A DNA stretch of 64,000 nucleotides, from assembly GCF_029867415.1 (NCBI RefSeq), contig NC_081185.1, positions 130,457,848-130,521,847 of the forward strand. The letters are read 5' to 3'. The notes under the pieces are model-generated. The model saw nothing but the letters and a program-made list of their open reading frames with translations, ran no database searches and was not told the DNA's origin. The translations under genes were made by a program, and so were the position numbers. The stretch comes from Vicia villosa (lineage: Eukaryota > Streptophyta > Magnoliopsida > Fabales > Fabaceae). Positions 26,561 through 42,002 of the stretch are shown in pieces. Position 1 is the first letter of the stretch, and each line of letters opens with the position of its first letter.

Positions 26561-28708
26561 GTGTCAATTAGGGATGACAAAATAAAATTCATAGGCGTGA
26601 ATATCCGCATATACAATCTGTCACGTATATAGGGCAGATAGCTTAATAAATATCTACAAATAAAATAAATAAATATTTTAACACCCACTTTTAATGGATA
26701 CAGATATATGTTTAATAATATATGTGCGGATATATGTGTTAATAAATTATAAAATTATTTAAATATAATTAGTTAAAATTATTTAAAGAATGAAATTAAA
26801 TTTGTCATGAGGGAAATTAATGTGACAAAATTTTGTTATTAAAATAAGAGCGAATTGTATGTATTTTATGTGATAGTAAATTAAAAAAATTTCAAAAAAT
26901 AAATTCAAAAAACTTTTATTCATGAATATCTTTAAATGTGGCCATGGCCACCCCATTATTTTTTTAAGTAAAATTCATATCCTCTTAATATAATTGTCAT
27001 TTGGTATTACAAGTGGGAAAATATGGTTCATTAAATTTACATAAGTGATAAATTAAAACTATTAGTAAACATTGCGATGTATTTTCGGTTTTAATTAGCT
27101 CTCATAGTCTCACACTATACTACACTAAGCCATCTAACTTTATATTTATATAATTCACGTATTAAAACTAACTATTATCATCATTATATCCTTAATTATT
27201 TTTTTATATGTTAAATTATTACAAATAATAATACTAATAATTGTATATTATGTTTAAAATCTATCTCAATGATTATATATAATTAAAATTTGTCTCAAAT
27301 TCGTCTAAATATTTGATGATAGATTTTTCATAAATATAAATAAAAATAAATAATAATTGTGTATTTTGTGAATTATTTTTTTTAAAGACTCTTCATAATT
27401 TTATCTCAAATTCACCTTAATATTTTACAACTGATTTAAGACAAAATATAAAAATAAATACCAATTTTATATTATGTCTAAAATTCATCTCAAAGTCTAT
27501 ACACACAATGAAATTCTGCCTAAAATCCCTTTCAGTCTTTTACACTAATTTGAGATAGAATTTAAAAAAAAATAACAATTATGTATGATTTTTTCTAAAA
27601 TCTATCTTAAAGGTCTCTCTGGAATTGAATTTTGTTCAAACGTGTCTCAATATATCACATGAATTCAGAATAAAATTTTAGAAATATAGTAAAATATACA
27701 ATAATTATATAATTAGTCTGAAGTTCGTCTTAAAATCTCTACATGATTGAAATACAACTACATCATTTAAGATGGAATTTAATTCGTCCCAAATTTCTAT
27801 TTAAAAATATCAATATTTTAATGGTGTCACAACTACATGCAATACATTCATCACCATATACACTTATATTACTTATATTGTTCCCCATCATATATCTGTA
27901 TTTTGTATTTGACCCTTGTTGAAAGAGTATTGTGGTGTACTTTTCGCTATTATCGTATCCACAGGGATTATTGCGATATCACCGCCGTTCTATAGCCTAT
28001 TTTGTCTTGAGTTATGGTTACTTTAAATTTGGGTTTGCAAAAGATCATTCAATTCTTTTAGTAGCAAAGAGTAAATTAATGAAAGTTCTAAGTTAAAGAA
28101 AATGTATCAAGATTCGATTTCATCGACCTAAATTTGTATGTCTCCTTATAAATAGATGCTTATGAACTTGCTAACGATCAATATAATTACGTATCGACAC
28201 CTATATCGTCCGTGTCCGCAACGATATAGTTAGATTTACCGTATTGTTTAACCGACGATTTCTCCACCGTTTAAACAATACAAATAACGTTTTAAGAACC
28301 GATACTTAGTAAACATCAAACTCTAAATCCATGTCTGCAACTTATAGTTTGAAAGATGATTAGTTAGGTCTAGATACAAACATTGATGTCTCAAACACTT
28401 ATACCAAAGAAAAAGCTTTAATAAACAAACTAAACCATCTATATTGATCATCACTTGTTCATACACATATATTCACAAGAAAAACATACAAAAGGCTAGG
28501 AAGATTACATCTTATCTTGATACAAAAGTGATTTAGCTATCCATGAGAATGGTAGCTTGCACAAGAAGTAAAGGATGAAGATCAACAAGCATCAAAGGCG
28601 ATTAATCGACGATCAAAGCTTCCAATCTTCGATTCTTTGTTTGCTACAGTGCACAAGTGTTCTTTTGCTCTCAAGATCAACCAACAAACACAAAATATCT
28701 GAAAACCC

Positions 28709-28717
28709 CTTTATATA
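28709..28717 (-). promoter_or_regulatory. TATA box in Athila LTR
   Basis: TATATAAAG on the minus strand. The copy in the 5' LTR, which would drive the genomic RNA, is at 39215-39223. Confidence 0.6.
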
Positions 28718-28736
28718 GCATTTCTGAATTCTGTCC

Positions 28737-28884
28737 AGGGCGCGTCGCGCCCTCCAGCGCGCTTCGCGCCAATACACTTAAAATTATAAACCGCCCATGC
28801 GCGCGACGCGCGCAACTCTCTGCCAGGAAGCTCCAAAATATCTCGCCCAGGGCGCGACGCGCCCACATCTCCGCGCGACGCGCG
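28737..28884. promoter_or_regulatory. Cluster of five GC-rich odd palindromes in the Athila LTR
   Basis: Within 150 bp: 28737-28753 (GGGCGCGTCGCGCCC core), 28757-28770 (imperfect), 28798-28814 (GCGCGCGACGCGCGC core), 28850-28864 (GGGCGCGACGCGCCC) and 28872-28884 (CGCGCGACGCGCG). Each is CGCG arms around a single A or T. Two are followed by AACTCTCTGCC. They lie 20-175 bp upstream of the TATA box in element orientation, the proximal-promoter position. The copy in the other LTR is at 39243-39390. A function as protein-binding sites (CGCG boxes are CAMTA targets) is inference. Confidence 0.7.
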
Positions 28885-29120
28885 CAACTCTCTGCCTGGG
28901 ACTCTCTTGCAAAGCTCAAAACAAGCTCCAAACTTCCCCAAAATTGGCTAAAACCTACAAAAATCATAACTAAAACACATATTAACATAAAATGAAAGCT
29001 TAATATTATAAACTATAAATAATTATTTAAAACTTCAGGGAATTGTACGAATATCCGATAAAAACGGTCGAAAGGTGCCATTAATTTAAACTAAATATAA
29101 ACACAATTTGGCACCTAACA

Positions 29121-29131
29121 ACTCTCCCCAA
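29121..29131 (-). promoter_or_regulatory. Athila polypurine tract
   Basis: Minus strand TTGGGGAGAGT immediately before the 3' LTR. Confidence 0.85.
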
Positions 29132-30713
29132 CTTAAACTCTTGTTTGTCCTCAAACAAAACAATGATAAATTACCGGGAACACAAAATATCACAAATGAA
29201 ACAACAAGGCAGAAACAAGAACAATTTAATGGTTCAAATTCCAAAAGTACACAAAGATCAATCCTTACCAGTTTTCATCAAAGTACCATGATAACAATGC
29301 TAATCCTATATACAAATTCTATGTCAGAAATTCCACAAAGCAAAGAAGTTCAAGAATGAATCACACCTACGTACTTCTCTACTAAGAGAACAAAAATGGA
29401 GGATCCTAACACTCACCAGACAATGACGCAAACATACCGAATTAATTATAAACTCATCTAAGCATAAGATATATAAAAGGTATATAAGCATGAATCACTA
29501 AGGACTTTCGGGTTGTAGCTTGGCTTGGTTAACAAGGAAGTGTCATTTCTCAAGGCCATTGAAACAAAAGGGGTCAATTCCTAAGAGAGCATTCAAATCA
29601 TGATTATATCCACACATCCTTATCAACCGATCACACAATTTTATTGCTCAAGAGTTCATCTTTTTATTTTAAAAGAACTAGCTATATACAAAGCTCTTCT
29701 CTTTTCCTTATTCTTTTTCTCTTTTTTTTTTTTTTTTTTTTTTCTTTTTCTCTCTTGAGCAATTTATTTATTTTCTTCTACTCACCAATACAACCAAGAT
29801 CAAAATTTTATTCTCCCCAACTTGAATATTACCACCACATAATCACGAATGCTCCCTATTCTAAGGCGAAAAGGAATCAATCCTAACCACATTTCATGGT
29901 ACTTTTCAAGGTTCAAAGAAAGTCATCAAGATTCAAATCAAACATCGGCAATTATAAGGCATGACATGATACCGATTGAATCTTGGCAAAATGGCTCAAA
30001 GTGGTTAGCAAACACTCACACACTCACCGGGTAGGTTATATTTGGAAGAGAAGTTATACTCGTAGTGCAGAACAAAACGCCTTGATCACTTTCATGCTTA
30101 ACACAATTTAATAACAATGCAAGATTAATCATAATAAAAACGAGTTAAAACGCACATTGCTGGTATCCAGCACAATTTATATATATACACAGTGGAAAGT
30201 CTCCTCACAACTACAGCTAGGCTAAAGTGATTCACAATTGAACTAATTTTATCCACAGAAATTAATGACAACTAATTTGTACAATTAAAAGCATCAGAAT
30301 CAAAAGTACTTGATAAATAAAACGATAAAGGATGTACCTTGCGCGTACAGTTTTCAACTTATATCATCACCACTCAAATTGTGTTGCATCATCCAAATTC
30401 ATCGTGGCAATAAAAATTTGTGTTCCAGCTAATTAATCATTAGGACAACTTGTCAAACCATTATTTCTAAAATATAAACACTAAACTAAAATAAACTACT
30501 TAAAAATAAATAAATGCAAAAATAAAATAAACTGAACTTATATAAAAATAAAAACCACACCAAGCGGTGTTAATTATCCAAAGGCGTAAACTTAGCCTTT
30601 CAAAGTACCTCATCCACCAGGATGGAACAAAATTAAAAACAAAGACAACTAAAAACTGTTCTAACATAAAACTAAAAACAATAAAACATAAAGCAAAATA
30701 AAAAAAACAAAGT
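29132..30713 (-). other. Athila 3' untranslated region
   Basis: Non-coding between the second open frame and the 3' LTR. Contains a 22-base T run on the plus strand (about 29728-29751, poly-A in element sense). At 29499-29532 it contains a motif almost identical to one at 56104-56140 in the Ogre-like element. Open frames here are short. Confidence 0.6.
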
Positions 30714-31886
30714 CTACTCCTCATCGGAAGTCTCCGGATCATCCTGCTCCATCCCCTCCTCAGGATCTGGCCTGCCCTCAGGCCATGCAGCATAGGCCGA
30801 TAAATCATCCCTGGAACCAACAGGCTGCTGCAGAGAAAGCTGCCGGATAGAATCCTGCAAAAACATAAACGCTCTCTGATGCGCCATATGCATCTGATAG
30901 TTCCAATCACTTGCATCACCATACTGTGGACCAGCAGGCGGTGCAGCAGCAACCGGAACAGCCTGAGAAGCATCGGGAAGGTCAGATGCACCAGCAGCAA
31001 CACCAAAAGGACGACCTCCAGGCAAACAGTACCTGTTAGCAAAAATATCATCGATAATACCATCCATGGGGATCATCCCACCAGTTGGGAACCGGACACC
31101 AGCCTTCCTGCACAAACCCATTATTAAACCAGGAAAAATCAACCTACATTTCACCCCATCTCCATGAAGAGTCCCATTCAGGGCGACTCTTTTCAGCTCA
31201 TTCGCCACAATCCTGGACACATCAATGTTATCACTATTCAGAATACCCTGAACCAAACCTGCCGTATCAATGGTGAGAGAAGAAGTGTGACTCCGTGGCC
31301 TAATGTTGTAAAGGACCACCGAAGCCACCAACTGAGCCTCCTCCGTCAACTGACTACGAGTAAAAGTCTTTGGCAGCCCAGCTTTAGTCAGAGTATAGGT
31401 GAAACCAGTCCTGCAAATCCTGTCCCTAATGCTGTCTGCATCCCAATTTCCTCTATTCAACCTGGGATGGTACTGACACTCTTCTACCAAAGCAAGAGGG
31501 TTATCCAGAAAATCAAAAATAGCCTCTTTGCTAAAATCAATGGCCTTACCTCTCACCCATGTTTTAAACGGGTAAGCTTCAGTACCTGTCCAACTGCTCG
31601 GAGGCAAGGCATTTGCATAAAACTCTCTAACAATCTCCACCTGATAGAATTGTGGTGGAGTGAACAACTTGTCCCAGCATGTTTCAGACAAAGCAGTCCA
31701 CGCCCTTTGGAAGAGGCCGTGGTCAATAGGAACCACCGTGCGTTCACTCCACACAACGCGGCTTTCAAGCTCATGGTACCTCGCCTCTTGCTCCGGACCT
31801 AGAAACCTCGTCCGATCAAACCTGCCAGCTTGTGAGGAAGATCCCTCACCAGAACCAGTCTTCTTTCTCTTTAAAAAGGGTGCCAT
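30714..31886 (-). CDS. Athila second open frame (390 aa), plant transposon-associated protein
   Basis: An uninterrupted 390-residue frame starting MAPFLKRKKTGSG lies downstream of pol, where Athila elements carry their extra gene. It has a basic N-terminus, a globular middle (WTALSETCWDKLF, IDFSKEAIFDFLDNP, LVASVVLYNIRPRSH, GLIMGLCRKAGVRFP), an Ala/Pro-rich linker at about 295-325, and a strongly acidic C-terminus (EEGMEQDDPETSDEE). The middle resembles the family catalogued as putative plant transposon protein in many plant genomes. I see no signal peptide and no membrane segment, so it is not envelope-like in appearance although it occupies the position often called env. Its role is unknown. 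It is separated from pol by 929 bp rich in GC palindromes, so it probably needs splicing or its own promoter. Confidence 0.8.
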   Translation of the reverse strand: MAPFLKRKKTGSGEGSSSQAGRFDRTRFLGPEQEARYHELESRVVWSERTVVPIDHGLFQRAWTALSETCWDKLFTPPQFYQVEIVREFYANALPPSSWTGTEAYPFKTWVRGKAIDFSKEAIFDFLDNPLALVEECQYHPRLNRGNWDADSIRDRICRTGFTYTLTKAGLPKTFTRSQLTEEAQLVASVVLYNIRPRSHTSSLTIDTAGLVQGILNSDNIDVSRIVANELKRVALNGTLHGDGVKCRLIFPGLIMGLCRKAGVRFPTGGMIPMDGIIDDIFANRYCLPGGRPFGVAAGASDLPDASQAVPVAAAPPAGPQYGDASDWNYQMHMAHQRAFMFLQDSIRQLSLQQPVGSRDDLSAYAAWPEGRPDPEEGMEQDDPETSDEE

Positions 31887-32815
31887 TCCTGCACAAATTT
31901 AAAATCAAACAAAACACACACAAATTGAAACAAAGTTAGCATAACCTCAATTTTAATAGCCTACATCAATCCACATTCATCATCAATCACAAAACAGACC
32001 CTATACAACTTCACAGAATGCATAAAAAAAAAAATTCAAAATTTGACCCAGGGCGCGACGCGCGCTGAACAGGGCGCGACGCGCGCTCTGCGAAACCCAG
32101 AAAAATTCTTCAGAAATCTGCAAAACAGAAGAGGAGAACAAGCTTCTCCTCCCTTCTAAGGGTCCCAGCAAGCAAAATACATCAATAACATGTTTTCTAC
32201 CCTAGTTTTTCACAATTTATCAAAAAATTCCTAAATCTAAAAACCTAAACTTCTAAAACTAAATTAATGGAAAGAGAAGAGAAGAAGAACAAACCTTTGA
32301 TGATTGATGACAGTGGAGAGACGAAAATAGTGAGGCAAATGCAAGAATCTAAGAGTAAGTGTGTGTTTGTTCTTTTTCTTTTCTTGGAACAAAGAGGAAG
32401 GGCAAGAGTGGAGGCAAAACCTCCAAAAACCCTAAATCTCAATTCTGAAAACGAACCGGGTCGGGCCCAGCATGGGTGGGCCCAAACAAAATTATTTTTT
32501 TTTTTTCAAAAATACGCACAGCGCGCTACGCGCGCAGACTCGGCGCGACGCGCCCTCATCTCTGCCTGGAAGGGGTCCTTGAGTACACATAGCGCGCGAC
32601 GCGCGCATATGGGTGCGACGCGCGCTACACCAGAAACAGCAGAAAAACTGCATTGTTTCAGCACGCCCAAAAATACCGGTAGATCGTTTCTGGCTCGACG
32701 ACAACTCAAAAATCCCACCTGCAAAAATAACACAAATACAAGTGAATATATACAACTTGGGGTGCCTCCCAAGAGCGCTTTGTTTAACGTCGGTCAGCTC
32801 GACGGTCAAAGGCAA
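31887..32815 (-). other. Spacer between Athila pol and the second frame, with GC palindromes
   Basis: Six more GC-rich palindromes of the LTR type: 32053-32063, 32074-32084, 32521-32535, 32542-32554, 32592-32606 and a partial one at about 32613-32625. The 32542 copy is followed by TCATCTCTGCCTGG, like the LTR copies. No gene is seen in the element sense; plus-strand open frames here are by-products of the repeats. Confidence 0.6.
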
Positions 32816-35800
32816 TCAAGGATCGCCAAACGATAAAACGCAAGTTTCACGATTAAAATCGCTTCCTCGATACACCTTCAACCTCTGACCATTTACTACC
32901 CACTCTTGGTTTGATTTTTGGTCCTCTATCACAATAGCCCCTTGGCTTCTCACTTCTTTGACCAAAAACGGTCCGGACCATTTAGACTTCAACTTTCCCG
33001 GAAAAAGTCTTAACCGGGAATTGAAGAGTAAAACTAATTGCCCTACCTTAAAGTCCTTCATTCTAACCTTACTATCATGATAGAATTTGGTCTTTTCCTT
33101 GTAAATCGAATTGGACTTATAGGCATGCAATCTCATCTCTTCCAACTCATTAAGTTGGATTTTTCTTCTCTCTCCACACAACTTGTGGTCAAAATTCAAA
33201 AGCTTCAAGGCCCAATATGCCTTATGCTCTAGTTCTACGGGAAGGTGGCAACTTTTACCATACACCATTTGGAATGGTGTAAGACCGATCGGTGCTTTGA
33301 AAGCGGTCCGATACGCCCACAAGGTTTCATCTAACTTCATTGACCAATCCTTCCTAGAACTAGACACAGTTTTCTCAAGAATTCTCTTAATCTCTCGATT
33401 GGTCCTCTCAACTTGCCCATTTGTTTGTGGATGATATGGAGTAGCTACCTTGTGCTTGACTCCATATTGCTCCAACACTTTTTCAAGCGGAGCATTACAA
33501 AAATGAGATCCACCATCACTAATTATCACTCTTGGCGAGCCAAACCGCGAAAATATATTTTTCTTCAAAAACTTTATCACGGTCTTACCATCTGCTTTGG
33601 GTGAAGCAATCGCTTCCACCCACTTAGACACATAATCAACAGCTACCAAGATGTATTCATTTGACATTGAGGAAGGGAATGGTCCAACAAAATCAATGCC
33701 CCAACAATCGAATACCTCAACTTCTACAATACTTTGGAGGGGCATTTCCTCTCTTTTCCCTATTCCACCAGTTCTTTGACAACTGTCGCATGAGGCAACA
33801 TGGTGGTAAGCATCTTTGAACAAAGTAGGCCACCAAAATCCCGATTGAAGGACTTTTGTGGCCGTACGCAAACCATTAAAATGACCACCATAAGGCGAAT
33901 TGTGGCAATGCCACAAAATGCTTTTTGCCTCCTCATCCGCGACACATCTTCTCAAAAGATTGTCACTACTCAACTTAAACAAGTGAGGATCGTCCCAAAC
34001 ATAAAAATTAGCATCGTTTAAAAACTTTTTTCTTTGATTCCAAGTTAGATCCTCCGGTATCCAGCCAGATGCTTTGTGATTAGCCATATCTGCGAACCAG
34101 GGTCTAACTTCTTGTACCATGTACAGTTTTTCATCGGGGAATTCTTCCCTCACCTCTTTTTCATTGTTTGTCACCTCGGTATTCACTAACCGAGACAAAT
34201 GATCCGCAATCAAATTTTCTGTACCTTTCTTATCTTTCACTTCAAGATCAAATTCTTGAAGCAAAAGAATCCACCGAATAAGCCTCTGTTTTGAATCAGG
34301 CTTGGTGAGAAGATATTTGATTGCGGCATGATCAGTATAACACACAACTTTAGAACCAATGAGGTAAGAGCGAAACTTTTCCAATGCAAATACAATTGCG
34401 AGCAATTCTTTTTCGGTAGTGGCATAGTTAACCTGTGCCTCATTTAAAACTTTGCTCGCATAATGTATAGCATGGAATTGTTTGTTCTTCCTTTGGCCTA
34501 AGACCGCACCAACCGCATAGTCACTCGCATCGCACATGAGTTCAAACTCAAGCGACCAATTAGGAGCGACAATTATGGGTGTGGTGGTCAAATTTGCTTT
34601 AAGTTCTAGGAAAGCTTTTAGACATGATTCATCAAAATTAAATTCCATACCTTTGTTGAGCAAATTACTCAAAGGCTTTGCGACCTTGGAGAAATCCTTG
34701 ATGAATCTTCTATAGAACCCAGCATGTCCCAAGAAGCTCCTTATGCCTTTCACATTCACCGGAGGGGGAAGTTTTTCAATAACTTCAATTTTTGCCGGAT
34801 CGACCTCAAGACCCTTTGAAGAAACCTTGTGGCCAAGAACAATCCCATCCGTCACCATGAAAGTGCATTTCTCCCAGTTGAGAACCAAATTTGTTTCAAT
34901 GCATCTCTCCATTACCACATCAAGGTTCTTTAAGCACAAGTCAAATGACGACCCGTACACAGAAAAATCATCCATGAACACCTCGATGCTTTTCTCAATC
35001 AAATCAGAGAAGATAGCTTGCATGCACCTTTGAAATGTTGCAGGAGCATTACATAGTCCAAATGGCATTCTTCGGTAAGCGAAAACGCCAAAAGGACATG
35101 TAAAAGCAGTTTTCTCGTGGTCCGCCGGATTCACTGATATTTGATTGTATCCCGAATAACCATCCAAGAAACAATAGAAATTTCTTCCGGCTAACCTCTC
35201 TAACATTTGATCCATAAAAGGCAATGGAAAGTGATCTTTTCTTGTTGCTTGGTTCAACCTCCTATAGTCAATACACATACGCCACCCGGTCACCGCTCTC
35301 GAAGGAATCAACTCGTTCTTCTCATTTCTCACAACTGTCAATCCACCCTTCTTAGGAACCACATGCACCGGGCTCACCCATTCACTATCGGAGATGGGAT
35401 AAATCATCCCCGCCTCTAATAACTTCACAACCTCTTTTCTAACAACTTCTTTCATGGTTGGATTCAATCGCCTTTGAGGTTGTGCCACGGGCCGAAAATC
35501 ATCTTCTAACATAATCTTATGCATACAATAGGCCGGACTAATACCCTTCAAGTCGGATAAAACCCATCCTATTGCTTCTTGATTCTTCGTCAACACTTCC
35601 TTCAATCGATGCTCTTCCTTGTTAGACAAACCACTATTAATGATAACCGGCTTAGTAGAATTGTCACCGAGAAACACGTATTTCAAGTGAGATGGTAACA
35701 CATTCAACTCCACCTTTTGCTCTTCAACTTTAGGTTCATCCTTCAACTCTTCAATTTGAGTTTCAAATGGATTCATCTCCTCACAAGCCTCTAAGTTTCT

Positions 35801-38272
35801 CAAGCAATCTTCAATTTCCTTCTCTTGATCTTTGGTGAGAACTTCGAGAGCTTCCATTAAAGTCTTCTCAAGAGGATTCGACAAGTGCATTTGATTCTCC
35901 ACTTTCATAATAGCCCTTTCGGTAGCATCGATTCTAAAACAATCATCCTCATCATTAGGATGCTTGATGGCTTCAAAGAGATCAAGACATAATTCTTCAT
36001 CTTGGTACCTTAATTTCATTAAGCCATCATCAATATCGATCATCATTCGGGCCGTCTTCATAAAAGGCCTTCCTAAGATCAATGGAATCTCAGGATCTTC
36101 TTCCATGTCTATGACGATAAAATCAACAGGATACCAAAATTTGTCAACCTTGACAAGCAAGTCTTCCGCAACTCCATGAGGATGAGCTGTGGATTTATCT
36201 GCTAATGATAACGTCATTCTTGTCGGCTTCAAATCATTGATTCCTAATCTTCTCACCATAGACAATGGGATCAAATTAATGCTAGAACCGGTATCTACCA
36301 AACCTTTGCCTATGTGAACATTTCCAATAGACACCGGTAAGGTTACCCGCCCAGGATCATTTGATTTTATCGGAGTAGTGCGTTGAATTAACGCATTACA
36401 ACAAGAGCTCACCGTTACTACCTCCGGATCCAAGAATCTTCTCTTCTTAGTGATGATGTCTTTGATGAATTTTGCATACATCGGCATTTGCTCTAATGCT
36501 TCGGAAAAAGGGACATTGATTTGCAACTTGCTAAAAATGTCCAAGAACCGAGCATAGTGCTTTGCATCTTCTTTCTTTGACGGACCAGGAGGGTAAGGTA
36601 ATTTCTTCACTTGTATAGAATCATCCACCTTCTTCTTTCCCTTTTCACTCACACTCAATTTTTTTCTCTCTTTTTCTACAACTTTCTCAAGAGTTTCTTT
36701 TTCCACTAATTCTTTCTCTTTCTCATTTTCAACTAAATCACCCTCAACATTTTTTTCTACTTCAATCACCCTATCTTTTTCACTCTCAACAATTTCCTCC
36801 TCAACTATTTCTCCTACACCCATATCAATATTTCTACCGCTACGAGTTAGAATTGACTTACAATGCTCACGAGGATTTTCTTGTGTAGTAGCCGGAAAAG
36901 GACCTTTGTTTTGATCGGCAAGTTGCTTTGACAATTGCCCGACTTGAGTTTCAAGGTTCTTAATTGCGGCATCCGTACTCTTTTGGCTTGCAATTTGCAA
37001 TTGCATGAATTGGCTAAGAGTGTCCTCGATAGAAAGCTTTGTTTGTTGAGGTTGTTGATTGTAACCGCCTTGATAAGGATTTTGACGATTCGATGGGCCC
37101 GCTTCCGGCCTCCATCCTTGTTGATAACCTTGATTACCTCTTTGTTGGTAACCTTGGTTATTGTTGTAAGGTTGTTGTTGTTGTCTTCCACCATATCCTT
37201 GATTAGGATTAGACACATAATTCACCTCTTCACCCGGTGGAGGACAAAAACCTGTTTGATGGTCACCCCTACACAATTCACAACACATCACATGTTGATT
37301 TTTAGAAGGGCTCCCATTTATCTCTTTGATTTGTTGAGGGAGTTTTGACATTTGTTGAGTGAGCAATTCTACTTGTTGTGTCAATAACTTGTTTTGAGCA
37401 AGTATTGCATCACTAGTATTCAATTCAAGAACTCCCGGTTTTCTTTGCAATGCACTACGGTTGTGTTGCCCTTGATGATCATTCAAAGCCATTCTATCAA
37501 TGATAGCAATCGCTTCTGCAGCAGTTTTTGACATCAACGAACCACCCGCGGTAGCATCTAAAAGAGTTTTTGGTTGAGGTTGGAGTCCATTTCTAAAGAT
37601 ATGGATTTGAGACAACTCATCAAACCCATGACCTTTGCACTTTCTAACCATGGACTTGAACCTCTCCCATGCTTCATTGAGAGATTCATTCGAACCTTGA
37701 GAGAACACCGCAATAGAAGTTTTCGCTTCCATGAACCTATTGTGAGGAAAGAACCGATCCAAGAACTTCTCTTCTAACTCGTTCCAATTTGTCATGACAT
37801 TATTAGGTTGATCAAGGTACCATTCCTTAGCTTTTCCAATTAAGGAATGAGGAAAAAGTCTCCTGAACACCTGTTCTTCTTGGTCTTCCGGAGCACCTAT
37901 TGTTCCGGCAATCTCGTAGAACTTTGTTAGATGAGTAAATGGATCCTCGTGATCTGCCCCTGTGAACGGATTTTGGTATAATAATTGAAGTAACCCCGTC
38001 TTCATTTCGGAGTTTCTTCCATTGGCCTGATCACGAGCAAATTGTGCATTGAGACGAGGGCTGTTAACACATGGCCCTCGAGGTGGTGGATCCGCAGCCA
38101 TTTCTTCCTCAACCAAGTTTTCAACAGGAGTTGAAGAAGAAGATGCCTCTTGTTGCTGTCTTCTTTCCCTAGCTAGTTGTCTCCTCCTACGAGTTTTGCT
38201 ATTCTCTCTACGAGCAGTCCTCTCAATCTCAGGATCAAAAAGGAGTTGATCTGCAGGTACACGTCCTCGCAT
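32816..38272 (-). CDS. Athila gag-pol polyprotein (1818 aa)
   Basis: A single uninterrupted frame from ATG 38272 (MRGRVPADQ). A basic N-terminus leads into Athila-type gag at about residues 95-265 (NPFTGADHEDPFTHLTKFYE). A Cys/His knuckle is at 330-343 (CCELCRGDHQTGFC), followed by a Gln/Gly/Tyr-rich tract at 355-410. Protease has DTGSS at 660-664. Reverse transcriptase has CIDYRRLN near 1000 and active site FMDD at 1099-1102. RNase H spans about 1240-1320 (CDASDYAVGAVLG, TTEKELLAIVFALEKF, YTDHAAIKYLL). The integrase zinc region is at about 1455-1499 (H..H..CDSC) and its catalytic triad is D1527, D1586 and E1622, followed by a C-terminal domain ending near 1800. All key residues are present. 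One polyprotein would be cleaved by its own protease in the cytoplasmic particle. The lack of any stop with nearly identical LTRs indicates a very recent, potentially active copy. Confidence 0.97.
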   Translation of the reverse strand: MRGRVPADQLLFDPEIERTARRENSKTRRRRQLARERRQQQEASSSSTPVENLVEEEMAADPPPRGPCVNSPRLNAQFARDQANGRNSEMKTGLLQLLYQNPFTGADHEDPFTHLTKFYEIAGTIGAPEDQEEQVFRRLFPHSLIGKAKEWYLDQPNNVMTNWNELEEKFLDRFFPHNRFMEAKTSIAVFSQGSNESLNEAWERFKSMVRKCKGHGFDELSQIHIFRNGLQPQPKTLLDATAGGSLMSKTAAEAIAIIDRMALNDHQGQHNRSALQRKPGVLELNTSDAILAQNKLLTQQVELLTQQMSKLPQQIKEINGSPSKNQHVMCCELCRGDHQTGFCPPPGEEVNYVSNPNQGYGGRQQQQPYNNNQGYQQRGNQGYQQGWRPEAGPSNRQNPYQGGYNQQPQQTKLSIEDTLSQFMQLQIASQKSTDAAIKNLETQVGQLSKQLADQNKGPFPATTQENPREHCKSILTRSGRNIDMGVGEIVEEEIVESEKDRVIEVEKNVEGDLVENEKEKELVEKETLEKVVEKERKKLSVSEKGKKKVDDSIQVKKLPYPPGPSKKEDAKHYARFLDIFSKLQINVPFSEALEQMPMYAKFIKDIITKKRRFLDPEVVTVSSCCNALIQRTTPIKSNDPGRVTLPVSIGNVHIGKGLVDTGSSINLIPLSMVRRLGINDLKPTRMTLSLADKSTAHPHGVAEDLLVKVDKFWYPVDFIVIDMEEDPEIPLILGRPFMKTARMMIDIDDGLMKLRYQDEELCLDLFEAIKHPNDEDDCFRIDATERAIMKVENQMHLSNPLEKTLMEALEVLTKDQEKEIEDCLRNLEACEEMNPFETQIEELKDEPKVEEQKVELNVLPSHLKYVFLGDNSTKPVIINSGLSNKEEHRLKEVLTKNQEAIGWVLSDLKGISPAYCMHKIMLEDDFRPVAQPQRRLNPTMKEVVRKEVVKLLEAGMIYPISDSEWVSPVHVVPKKGGLTVVRNEKNELIPSRAVTGWRMCIDYRRLNQATRKDHFPLPFMDQMLERLAGRNFYCFLDGYSGYNQISVNPADHEKTAFTCPFGVFAYRRMPFGLCNAPATFQRCMQAIFSDLIEKSIEVFMDDFSVYGSSFDLCLKNLDVVMERCIETNLVLNWEKCTFMVTDGIVLGHKVSSKGLEVDPAKIEVIEKLPPPVNVKGIRSFLGHAGFYRRFIKDFSKVAKPLSNLLNKGMEFNFDESCLKAFLELKANLTTTPIIVAPNWSLEFELMCDASDYAVGAVLGQRKNKQFHAIHYASKVLNEAQVNYATTEKELLAIVFALEKFRSYLIGSKVVCYTDHAAIKYLLTKPDSKQRLIRWILLLQEFDLEVKDKKGTENLIADHLSRLVNTEVTNNEKEVREEFPDEKLYMVQEVRPWFADMANHKASGWIPEDLTWNQRKKFLNDANFYVWDDPHLFKLSSDNLLRRCVADEEAKSILWHCHNSPYGGHFNGLRTATKVLQSGFWWPTLFKDAYHHVASCDSCQRTGGIGKREEMPLQSIVEVEVFDCWGIDFVGPFPSSMSNEYILVAVDYVSKWVEAIASPKADGKTVIKFLKKNIFSRFGSPRVIISDGGSHFCNAPLEKVLEQYGVKHKVATPYHPQTNGQVERTNREIKRILEKTVSSSRKDWSMKLDETLWAYRTAFKAPIGLTPFQMVYGKSCHLPVELEHKAYWALKLLNFDHKLCGERRKIQLNELEEMRLHAYKSNSIYKEKTKFYHDSKVRMKDFKVGQLVLLFNSRLRLFPGKLKSKWSGPFLVKEVRSQGAIVIEDQKSNQEWVVNGQRLKVYRGSDFNRETCVLSFGDP

Positions 38273-38400
38273 AAACTGTAATCTGAAAAACTAACCAAGC
38301 AAATTAACAAACACAAGGAAAATAAATTTAGAAACAAGATATTAATTATAAGACTCAATACAAAACAAACTATTGCAATGCTTGCAATATCTAAACAACA

Positions 38401-38419
38401 ATCCCCGGCAACGGCGCCA
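38401..38419 (-). promoter_or_regulatory. Athila primer binding site (tRNA-Asp type)
   Basis: Minus strand TGGCGCCGTTGCCGGGGAT, three bases after the 5' LTR, matches the 3' end of plant tRNA-Asp. Confidence 0.93.
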
Positions 38420-38422
38420 TTT

Positions 38423-39626
38423 TGTTGAAAGAGTATTGTGGTGTACTTTTCGCTATTATCGTATCCACAGGGATTATTGCGATATCACCGCCGTTCTATA
38501 GCCTATTTTGTCTTGAGTTATGGTTACTTTAAATTTGGGTTTGCAAAAGATCATTCAATTCTTTTAGTAGCAAAGAGTAAATTAATGAAAGTTCTAAGTT
38601 AAAGAAAATGTATCAAGATTCGATTTCATCGACCTAAATTTGTATGTCTCCTTATAAATAGATGCTTATGAACTTGCTAACGATCAATATAATTACGTAT
38701 CGACACCTATATCGTCCGTGTCCGCAACGATATAGTTAGATTTACCGTATTGTTTAACCGACGATTTCTCCACCGTTTAAACAATACAAATAACGTTTTA
38801 AGAACCGATACTTAGTAAACATCAAACTCTAAATCCATGTCTGCAACTTATAGTTTGAAAGATGATTAGTTAGGTCTAGATACAAACATTGATGTCTCAA
38901 ACACTTATACCAAAGAAAAAGCTTTAATAAACAAACTAAACCATCTATATTGATCATCACTTGTTCATACACATATATTCACAAGAAAAACATACAAAAG
39001 GCTAGGAAGATTACATCTTATCTTGATACAAAAGTGATTTAGCTATCCATGAGAATGGTAGCTTGCACAAGAAGTAAAGGATGAAGATCAACAAGCATCA
39101 AAGGCGATTAATCGACGATCAAAGCTTCCAATCTTCGATTCTTTGTTTGCTACAGTGCACAAGTGTTCTTTTGCTCTCAAGATCAACCAACAAACACAAA
39201 ATATCTGAAAACCCCTTTATATAGCATTTCTGAATTCTGTCCAGGGCGCGTCGCGCCCTCCAGCGCGCTTCGCGCCAATACACTTAAAATTATAAACCGC
39301 CCATGCGCGCGACGCGCGCAACTCTCTGCCAGGAAGCTCCAAAATATCTCGCCCAGGGCGCGACGCGCCCACATCTCCGCGCGACGCGCGCAACTCTCTG
39401 CCTGGGACTCTCTTGCAAAGCTCAAAACAAGCTCCAAACTTCCCCAAAATTGGCTAAAACCTACAAAAATCATAACTAAAACACATATTAACATAAAATG
39501 AAAGCTTAATATTATAAACTATAAATAATTATTTAAAACTTCAGGGAATTGTACGAATATCCGATAAAAACGGTCGAAAGGTGCCATTCATTTAAACTAA
39601 ATATAAACACAATTTGGCACCTAACA
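38423..39626 (-). repeat. Athila 5' LTR
   Basis: Copy of 27917-29120 at an offset of 10506 bp, with TATA at 39215-39223 and the palindrome cluster at 39243-39390. Confidence 0.97.
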
Positions 39627-41559: not shown

Positions 41560-42002
41560 TTTATATTGTAATCATTGACGTTCTTTAAGAAGAAGGTCGA
41601 ACATGAAATCTTTATTCGAAGAATTTTCTTTTTTCCTGTAATTTTTTTTCCGTAGTAAAGCAAAAATGTAACTCATGTTAGACTTTTCTTAAAGAAAAAG
41701 ATAGTGAAATTAATAGTAATTAGTGTAATATAGTATTTTTTTTACCTTGTAAAGATTCGAATCAATTCTTCATACATCCCTTTATATTGTAATCATTGAC
41801 GTTCTTTAAGAAGAAGGTCGAACATGAAATCTTTATTCGAAGAATTTTCTTTTTTCCTGTAATTTTTTTTCCGTAGTAAAGCAAAAATGTAACTCATGTT
41901 AGACTTTTCTTAAAGAAAAAGATAGTGAAATTAATAGTAATTAGTGTAATATAGTATTTTTTTTTACCTTGTAAAGATTCGAATCAATTCTTCATACATC
42001 CC
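41560..42002. repeat. 221-bp direct tandem duplication
   Basis: 41560-41780 and 41781-42002 are identical by eye except for one extra T in a T run. Non-coding, and a recent duplication. Confidence 0.95.

Follow-up and report, generated by a model that had tools for sequence, protein, structure and literature searches.

Matching palindromic boxes in the LTRs and upstream of ORF2 of Athila-type retrotransposons of Vicia villosa

Described systems close to the Athila arrays

Two described systems come closest to the palindromic arrays that we analyze here in Athila-type long terminal repeat (LTR) retrotransposons of Vicia villosa, starting from a complete element in a 64,000-nucleotide stretch of contig NC_081185.1 (hereafter the window, meaning the whole stretch). 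One is the RM boxes of Sireviruses, which are Ty1/copia elements. In the available sections of Bousios et al. 2010 (PMC2829016), these boxes are described as palindromic, CpG-rich, and present in multiple copies in the LTR on the upstream side of the TATA box, and again ahead of the env-like gene; their words vary between elements, most having a CGG-CCG core, their clusters define CpG islands, and they match mainly the sites of stress factors. The same sections call the RM boxes specific to Sireviruses and absent from classic copia elements and name no common binding protein. The other system is VANC, an anti-silencing protein encoded by VANDAL transposons, whose noncoding DNA, including introns and upstream regions, carries dense short motifs; according to the accessible portions of PMC5735166 and PMC10398659, the motif and the protein have diverged in parallel from one related family to the next.

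The arrays in the 15 Athila-type elements of our sample, which fall into six families (F1, that of the window element, to F6), resemble the RM boxes in being palindromic LTR repeats upstream of a TATA box, which is near in the form TATATAAA in F1 and F4 only, and in having extra boxes ahead of an env-like open reading frame (ORF), here in all 15 elements. They differ in lying in elements with Ty3/gypsy rather than Ty1/copia gene order and in having CGCG or CGCT half-sites (in F4, the word CATACGCGTATG) and no CGG-CCG core. With VANC and the VANDALs they would share an element-encoded protein and dense noncoding motifs that vary together by family; however, VANDALs are DNA transposons, whereas the present elements are LTR retrotransposons, and VANC21 motifs, as far as the accessible portions of these papers describe them, lie in a single orientation in tandem repeats, whereas the Athila boxes are dyad palindromes. 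No sequence-level relation of ORF2, the 3' ORF of these elements, to VANC was found.

Other reports touch on the ORF2 protein, which carries the PF20167 domain, or on CpG-rich LTRs. An active Athila element of sunflower encodes a PF20167 protein with a predicted nuclear localization signal and shares this 3' ORF with the elements studied here; the available part of PMC11728184 mentions neither palindromes nor a VANC-like function for it. In one sunflower Athila cluster, methylation drops in the LTRs, and the 2026 study reporting this states, in its accessible part, that it “remains to be investigated” whether the extra ORFs of Tork and Athila elements modulate the epigenetic landscape of these elements (PMC12844716). 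MAIN and MAIL1 have a retrotransposon-related plant mobile domain and a role in silencing, and a promoter motif called “DOWN” marks the genes that depend on them (available sections of PMC5418596 and PMC7156037); unlike ORF2, they are host genes, and no profile-level relation to PF20167 was found. The CpG islands of Del LTRs, as the accessible part of PMC4029996 presents them, are looser than the Athila arrays. In the PMC literature, which mostly leaves out subscription papers and was available in part, we found no description of the Athila arrays or of a VANC-like role for PF20167.

One palindromic word per family at two places

All families come from a single genome, that of V. villosa (2.03 Gb). 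A genome search for PF20167 gave 15,269 candidates, of which 150 were scored, and 16 of these places were fetched by coordinates after being chosen on ORF length and score and not on palindromes. Fourteen of the fetched elements and that of the window make up the sample; the other two fetched places are the box-free loci L069 and L072 described below. The words are CGCG-W-CGCG in F1, TCCGCT-N-AGCGGA in F2 (the center letter being free: G, C, or T), CCGCT-N-AGCGG in F3 (likewise free: A, C, or T), CATACGCGTATG in F4, CGCG-C-CGCG in F5, and CGCT-W-AGCG in F6. Five of the six fit the scheme CGC-x-n-x'-GCG, with x being G or T, and F4 stands apart; one half-site is common to F2, F3, and F6 and another to F1 and F5, and some words are one or two letters apart. 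Every word contains CpG, that of F4 just two in 12 nt, a point that bears on the methylation sensing suggested in the initial annotation. In 15 of 15 elements, the LTR word is the same as the word ahead of ORF2, and we regard the presence of the family word at both places as near certain for the elements examined. The numbers of internal and LTR boxes, respectively, are 4 and 4 in F1, 3-4 and 3-5 in F2, 3-4 and 2-4 in F3, 7 and 5-6 in F4, 5-10 and 4 in F5, and 6 and 5 in F6, with 1 and 5 in the element C854 and 1 and 4 in the element C1095. Words of other families are missing, except that each F3 LTR holds one or two degraded boxes and C854 a single degraded F2 box. If the six LTR words were dealt at random, the correct pairing would arise once in 720 dealings, or once in 60 when only three half-site classes are distinguished. 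With the boxes masked, the best match in each of the two zones was a same-word element for all 13 elements that have such a partner; F1 and F6 are single elements in this comparison. All 30 PF20167 loci retrieved automatically in the genome search carry TCCGCT-N-AGCGGA in 2-4 copies each, and the three other words counted there were not found in them; C4:99.9, which is among these 30 and also among the fetched 16, had an internal word that was known before the fetch.

The LTR word of F5 and F6 and its place were predicted before these LTRs were fetched, and both predictions held. The F6 LTR contains five CGCT-W-AGCG boxes, and each F5 LTR contains one exact CGCGCCGCG and three copies of GGCGCCGCG, one-letter variants that spoil the dyad. 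A TATATAA predicted just downstream of the boxes was found in neither family. Among the seven elements checked, TATATAAA lies 23-29 nt past the last box core in F1 and in F4a and F4b; F2 shows CATAAA at a distance of 30 nt, and in F3, F5, and F6 nothing TATA-like was found in the 150 nt past the last core. The initial annotation, which had placed the palindromes of the window element just upstream of its TATA box, is thus right for the window, where the array ends 19 bp before TATATAAA and lies upstream of it on the element (minus) strand, and less so for the families in general.

That annotation had described five palindromes of the form CGCG-A/T-CGCG. Each LTR of the window element has four exact ones, with arms of 6-8 nt and up to 17 nt in length, and a fifth that is imperfect (Table 1); the CTCTGCC tail attributed to several of them follows only two LTR boxes (28798 and 28872). 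We add to this array four internal boxes upstream of ORF2. The 12 occurrences of CGCGWCGCG in the window all fall within the element, four in each LTR and four internally. The observed/expected ratio of CpG is 1.65 in the array vs 1.04 elsewhere in the LTR. In a search whose query left out the boxes, 30 of 30 LTR stretches in the genome kept the array (25 with four sites, two with three, and three with eight, because two LTRs fall inside each of the latter); the stretches are 99-100% identical to the query and therefore say little about selection. At G000:C2:89046623-89054056, five LTR-stretch copies follow each other every 1744 bp exactly (the stretches L031-L034 cover four of the five). This tandem array is derived from the Athila LTR of the window, and it is possibly a young satellite.

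Chance palindromes were ruled out by shuffles and by counts of reversed patterns. In positions 28700-28920 of the window, none of 1000 dinucleotide shuffles reached four odd palindromes with arms of at least 6 nt, and over the whole LTR, 3 of 1000 did so; the internal region of F1 is a weaker spot, as 18 of 1000 shuffles reached its two perfect palindromes with arms of 6. Genome counts of the words of F1-F5 were set against those of the same pattern read backwards and gave 10,407 vs 557 for F1, 10,288 vs 9 for F2, 1,573 vs 3 for F3, 5,331 vs 9 for F4, and 33,911 vs 4,316 for F5. In a test that presupposes no word (arms of at least 5, spacer of 0-1, and at least two CpG; 300 dinucleotide shuffles), 24 of 30 zones had more dyads than any shuffle; in the weaker zones, the real number was reached by 46 and 15 of 300 shuffles for F6 and by 7 of 300 for the internal zone of C1095. 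Half-sites stand mostly in dyads in F2 (CCGCT, 27 of 35), F3 (CCGCT, 28 of 30), F4 (ATACG, 25 of 37), and F6 (CGCT, 11 of 16); the corresponding CGCG counts (8 of 31 in F1 and 27 of 67 in F5) are uninformative because CGCG is its own reverse complement. Pairing at ±1 to ±3 in the 98 boxes is built into the patterns used to find them and, being circular, is not used as evidence. Outside the words, pairing was seen at ±5 (8 of 8) and ±6 (6 of 8; three C-G and three G-C) in F1, at ±5 in F5 (26 of 36; 15 T-A and 11 A-T), and at ±6 in F6 (11 of 11).

Also ruled out was that a single long segment had been copied from one zone to the other, because within an element the LTR and internal zones have no common string longer than 18 nt; shared strings mostly consist of a box and a few letters and in F2 also of the spacer between two boxes. 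Among relatives within F2-F5, the arms differ at 27 of 1052 sites (2.6%) and the flanks at 1609 of 11,436 (14.1%), in a comparison in which pairs are not independent and a column counted as box if any row had an intact word. The contrast is weaker in F1, where the window and 15 copies at 88-93% identity differ at 4.2% in arms, 8.1% in flanks, and 6.7% in flank CpG columns; many of the box changes there are CpG to TpG or CpA, as expected for the decay of methylated copies. The initial annotation had asked whether related copies lack the boxes or let them vary freely, and this comparison, run in part, found the places kept and the word changing in concert. The anatomical side of its proposal, an array carried by the element, is thereby upheld at the level of sequence.

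ORF2 as candidate reader and the rival explanations

Overall, we conclude that the boxes form a real, organized, and conserved cis-system that is far wider than five palindromes. They are likely to be the sites of a dimeric DNA-binding protein; a dyad with a center of 0-1 nt could be read by a dimer on double-stranded DNA. In the reading that we prefer, which we place just short of an even chance, the dyad boxes at the LTR and at ORF2 would be a family-specific switch read by the element's own ORF2 protein. A sequence-specific, probably dimeric protein would bind the boxes at two places: ahead of the LTR promoter, and both upstream of ORF2 and in its predicted first intron. The most probable binder would be the element's own PF20167 product, possibly of VANC-like fold, and we put the chances that it is ORF2 at about even; it would recognize its own family's word and keep the element DNA transcribable, either by activation or by countering silencing, on the model of VANC proteins acting on VANDAL transposons.

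The region ahead of ORF2 may hold its own host-like promoter. Between the two internal box clusters of the window element lie TGGGCC and TAGGGTT motifs, which we take to be of site II type and telo-box type, respectively; both types are usual in plant promoters. They occur together ahead of ORF2 in 8 of 13 elements, the telo-box type occurs alone in the three F5 elements, and it is also found at two box-free PF20167 loci described below. Further, a similar leader (TTTCTG...) precedes the intron box in F1, F2, F3, F5, and F6, so that one seemingly homologous site would bear five different words.

A wider version of the proposal, which we hold only tentatively, would make ORF2 the Athila counterpart of VANC. 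Here, the protein that has long been labeled env-like would be a nuclear one of VANC fold; it would read a private palindrome in the LTR and in its own promoter and intron, would erase or block silencing, and would coevolve with its sites, one word at a time. A cassette reaching from the pol stop to U3 (the unique 3' region of the LTR) would comprise both the protein and the sites. Because the pol stop, internal boxes, ORF2, and U3 boxes are contiguous in the element RNA, a single template switch could swap the lock together with the key. In F1 and F6 (window 28330-33000 vs L071 and L075), the 3' part of pol and the LTR past U3 are near identical, and the segment from the pol stop to U3 is strongly diverged as a block, a pattern that would fit the swap of a cassette from one family to another. 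The boxes and env-like genes of Sireviruses might then follow the same principle in Ty1/copia elements.

ORF2 was rejected as an envelope protein: in 6 of 7 proteins, no transmembrane-like segment was seen by simple hydropathy (19-residue maxima of 0.81-1.60), and the maximum of 2.14 in F4b falls in an N-terminal extension. A predicted structure model of ORF2 gave a tentative match to VANC21. A Foldseek search of the PDB returned three matches, with E of 6 or worse; a search of viral structures returned none with E ≤ 0.001; a profile search of PDB sequences returned one, SRSF protein kinase 2, at E 0.1; and the AlphaFold model of an F4 ORF2 had a pLDDT (predicted local distance difference test) of 34.8 and was not used. 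No relatives of ORF2 were confirmed in collections of viral and bacterial contigs, and hhalign found no profile-level relation of ORF2 to DUF1985 or plant mobile domain proteins. The plant mobile domain family PF10536 and the DUF1985 family PF09331 overlap, as the proteins P0057-P0064 are listed with the two of them. Two very similar PF20167 genes (L069 on G000:C630 and L072 on G000:C348) have neither a recognizable pol upstream nor boxes and could be domesticated or another kind of host copy.

Two observations slightly lower our confidence in the switch read by ORF2. In the word-free test, the LTRs of F5 had no dyad with arms of 5 (3 of 3), and outside the words, pairing is poor at ±5 in F6 (2 of 11), ±6 in F3 (8 of 28), and ±7 in F2 (1 of 15). 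In three pairs of families, a change of box word goes with a change of ORF2, but the two are linked on one segment from the pol stop to U3. The strongest rival, which we consider unlikely, is that host transcription factors bind the boxes (CAMTA factors where the word contains CGCG and others elsewhere) and that each family puts one such site before both of its promoters. The CAMTA core is CGCG, which is contained in the words of F1, F4, and F5, and the promoter-like motifs ahead of ORF2 would suit this explanation, as would the stress-factor matches in the sections of PMC2829016 cited above. However, F2 and F3, whose CCGCT-N-AGCGG words make up 43 of the 98 boxes, lack CGCG; because two of the six words do, we reject CAMTA as the general reader; the initial annotation had pointed to CGCG cores as CAMTA targets. 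It would also take a number of host factors whose GC-rich dyads resemble one another, yet five of the six words fit one scheme.

Improbable, in our judgment, is an epigenetic role of the boxes as mere CpG-dense tracts (CpG island, methylation target, or boundary) with no sequence-specific reader. The CpG excess of the array, the CpG islands of Sirevirus RM clusters, and the lowered LTR methylation in sunflower (the last two from the accessible parts of PMC2829016 and PMC12844716) agree with it, but a CpG tract requires no dyad symmetry, no family word, and no use of the same word twice, and the F4 word has few CpG. About as improbable is neutral spread, in which slippage, template switching, or conversion would multiply the boxes and drift would account for family differences. 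The internal boxes of F5 do lie within tandem repeats of ~70 bp, some LTR and internal boxes have short flanks in common, the segment between the pol stop and U3 diverges as a block, and the F5 LTR boxes are poor dyads; against this, arms are ~5 times less diverged than flanks in F2-F5 (~2 times in F1), and neither the shortness of the shared strings nor the dyad excess over shuffles fits. RNA hairpins of the boxes, acting in packaging, stability, or 3' processing of the genomic RNA, are very improbable: the folding energy is about -12 kcal/mol for single F1 boxes and -9.4 for an F5 box, but the F4 box reaches only -0.6 despite its many copies, so it has no stable fold, and a center of 0-1 nt leaves no room for a hairpin loop.

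The proposal gives the 3' ORF of Athila a concrete and testable partner, in the form of six protein-word pairs from one genome. If it is true, a very common plant “env-like” ORF would be a self-serving DNA-binding regulator and not an envelope, the Sirevirus boxes may have a reader too, the differences in word and ORF2 among elements with nearly the same pol would be explained, and several natural DNA-binding specificities would be on offer.

Anatomy of the window element

The features of the window element are collected in Table 1. A 5-bp target site duplication lies on either side of the element, the primer binding site directly follows the 5' LTR, and a polypurine stretch precedes the 3' LTR. 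The pol domains are in the order reverse transcriptase (RVT_1, residues 994-1149), RNase H (1240-1341), and integrase (rve, 1521-1615). The element is young, with a single mismatch between its LTRs. It appears to be of Athila type because the primer binding site, the gene order, and ORF2 fit; we take the primer binding site sequence as a mark of the Athila lineage.

Table 1. Features of the Athila-type element, in window coordinates
Feature	Position	Strand	Details
Complete Ty3/gypsy element, Athila-type	27917-39626	minus	ACCCT on both flanks; TG..CA LTR ends
3' LTR	27917-29120	minus	1204 bp; 1 mismatch in 1204 to the other LTR; TG..CA ends
TATATAAA of 3' LTR	28710-28717	minus	23 nt past the last CGCGWCGCG core
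LTR box 1	28737-28753	minus	17-nt odd palindrome; plus strand AGGGCGCG-T-CGCGCCCT
LTR box 2	28757-28769	minus	Imperfect; GCGCG-CTT-CGCGC, 3-nt center
LTR box 3	28798-28814	minus	17-nt odd palindrome; plus strand TGCGCGCG-A-CGCGCGCA
LTR box 4	28850-28864	minus	15 nt; plus strand GGGCGCG-A-CGCGCCC
LTR box 5	28872-28884	minus	13 nt; plus strand CGCGCG-A-CGCGCG
ORF2 (candidate box-binding protein)	30714-31886	minus	390 aa; PF20167 Transposase_32, E 1.2e-33; “env-like” position
Predicted 5' untranslated region intron	31889-32294	minus	AAG^GTTTGT ... TTTGTGCAG^GAATG; by eye from sequence
Internal box cluster 2	32050-32085	minus	CGCGWCGCG at 32054 and 32075, inside the predicted ORF2 intron
TGGGCC and TAGGGTT motifs	32428-32484	minus	Between box clusters; promoter-like
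Internal box cluster 1	32521-32625	minus	Past pol stop; perfect at 32542-32554 and 32592-32606 (CGCGWCGCG at 32544 and 32595); degenerate at 32521 and 32615
gag-pol ORF	32816-38272	minus	1818 aa; gag, protease, reverse transcriptase, RNase H, integrase
5' LTR	38423-39626	minus	1204 bp; followed by primer binding site TGGCGCCGTTGCCGGGG on minus strand
Matching array of 5' LTR	39243-39390	minus	Perfect boxes at 39243, 39304, 39356, and 39378

Adjoining the element, at positions 41560-41964 of the window, we note a perfect direct repeat of 184 bp with a spacing of 221 bp.
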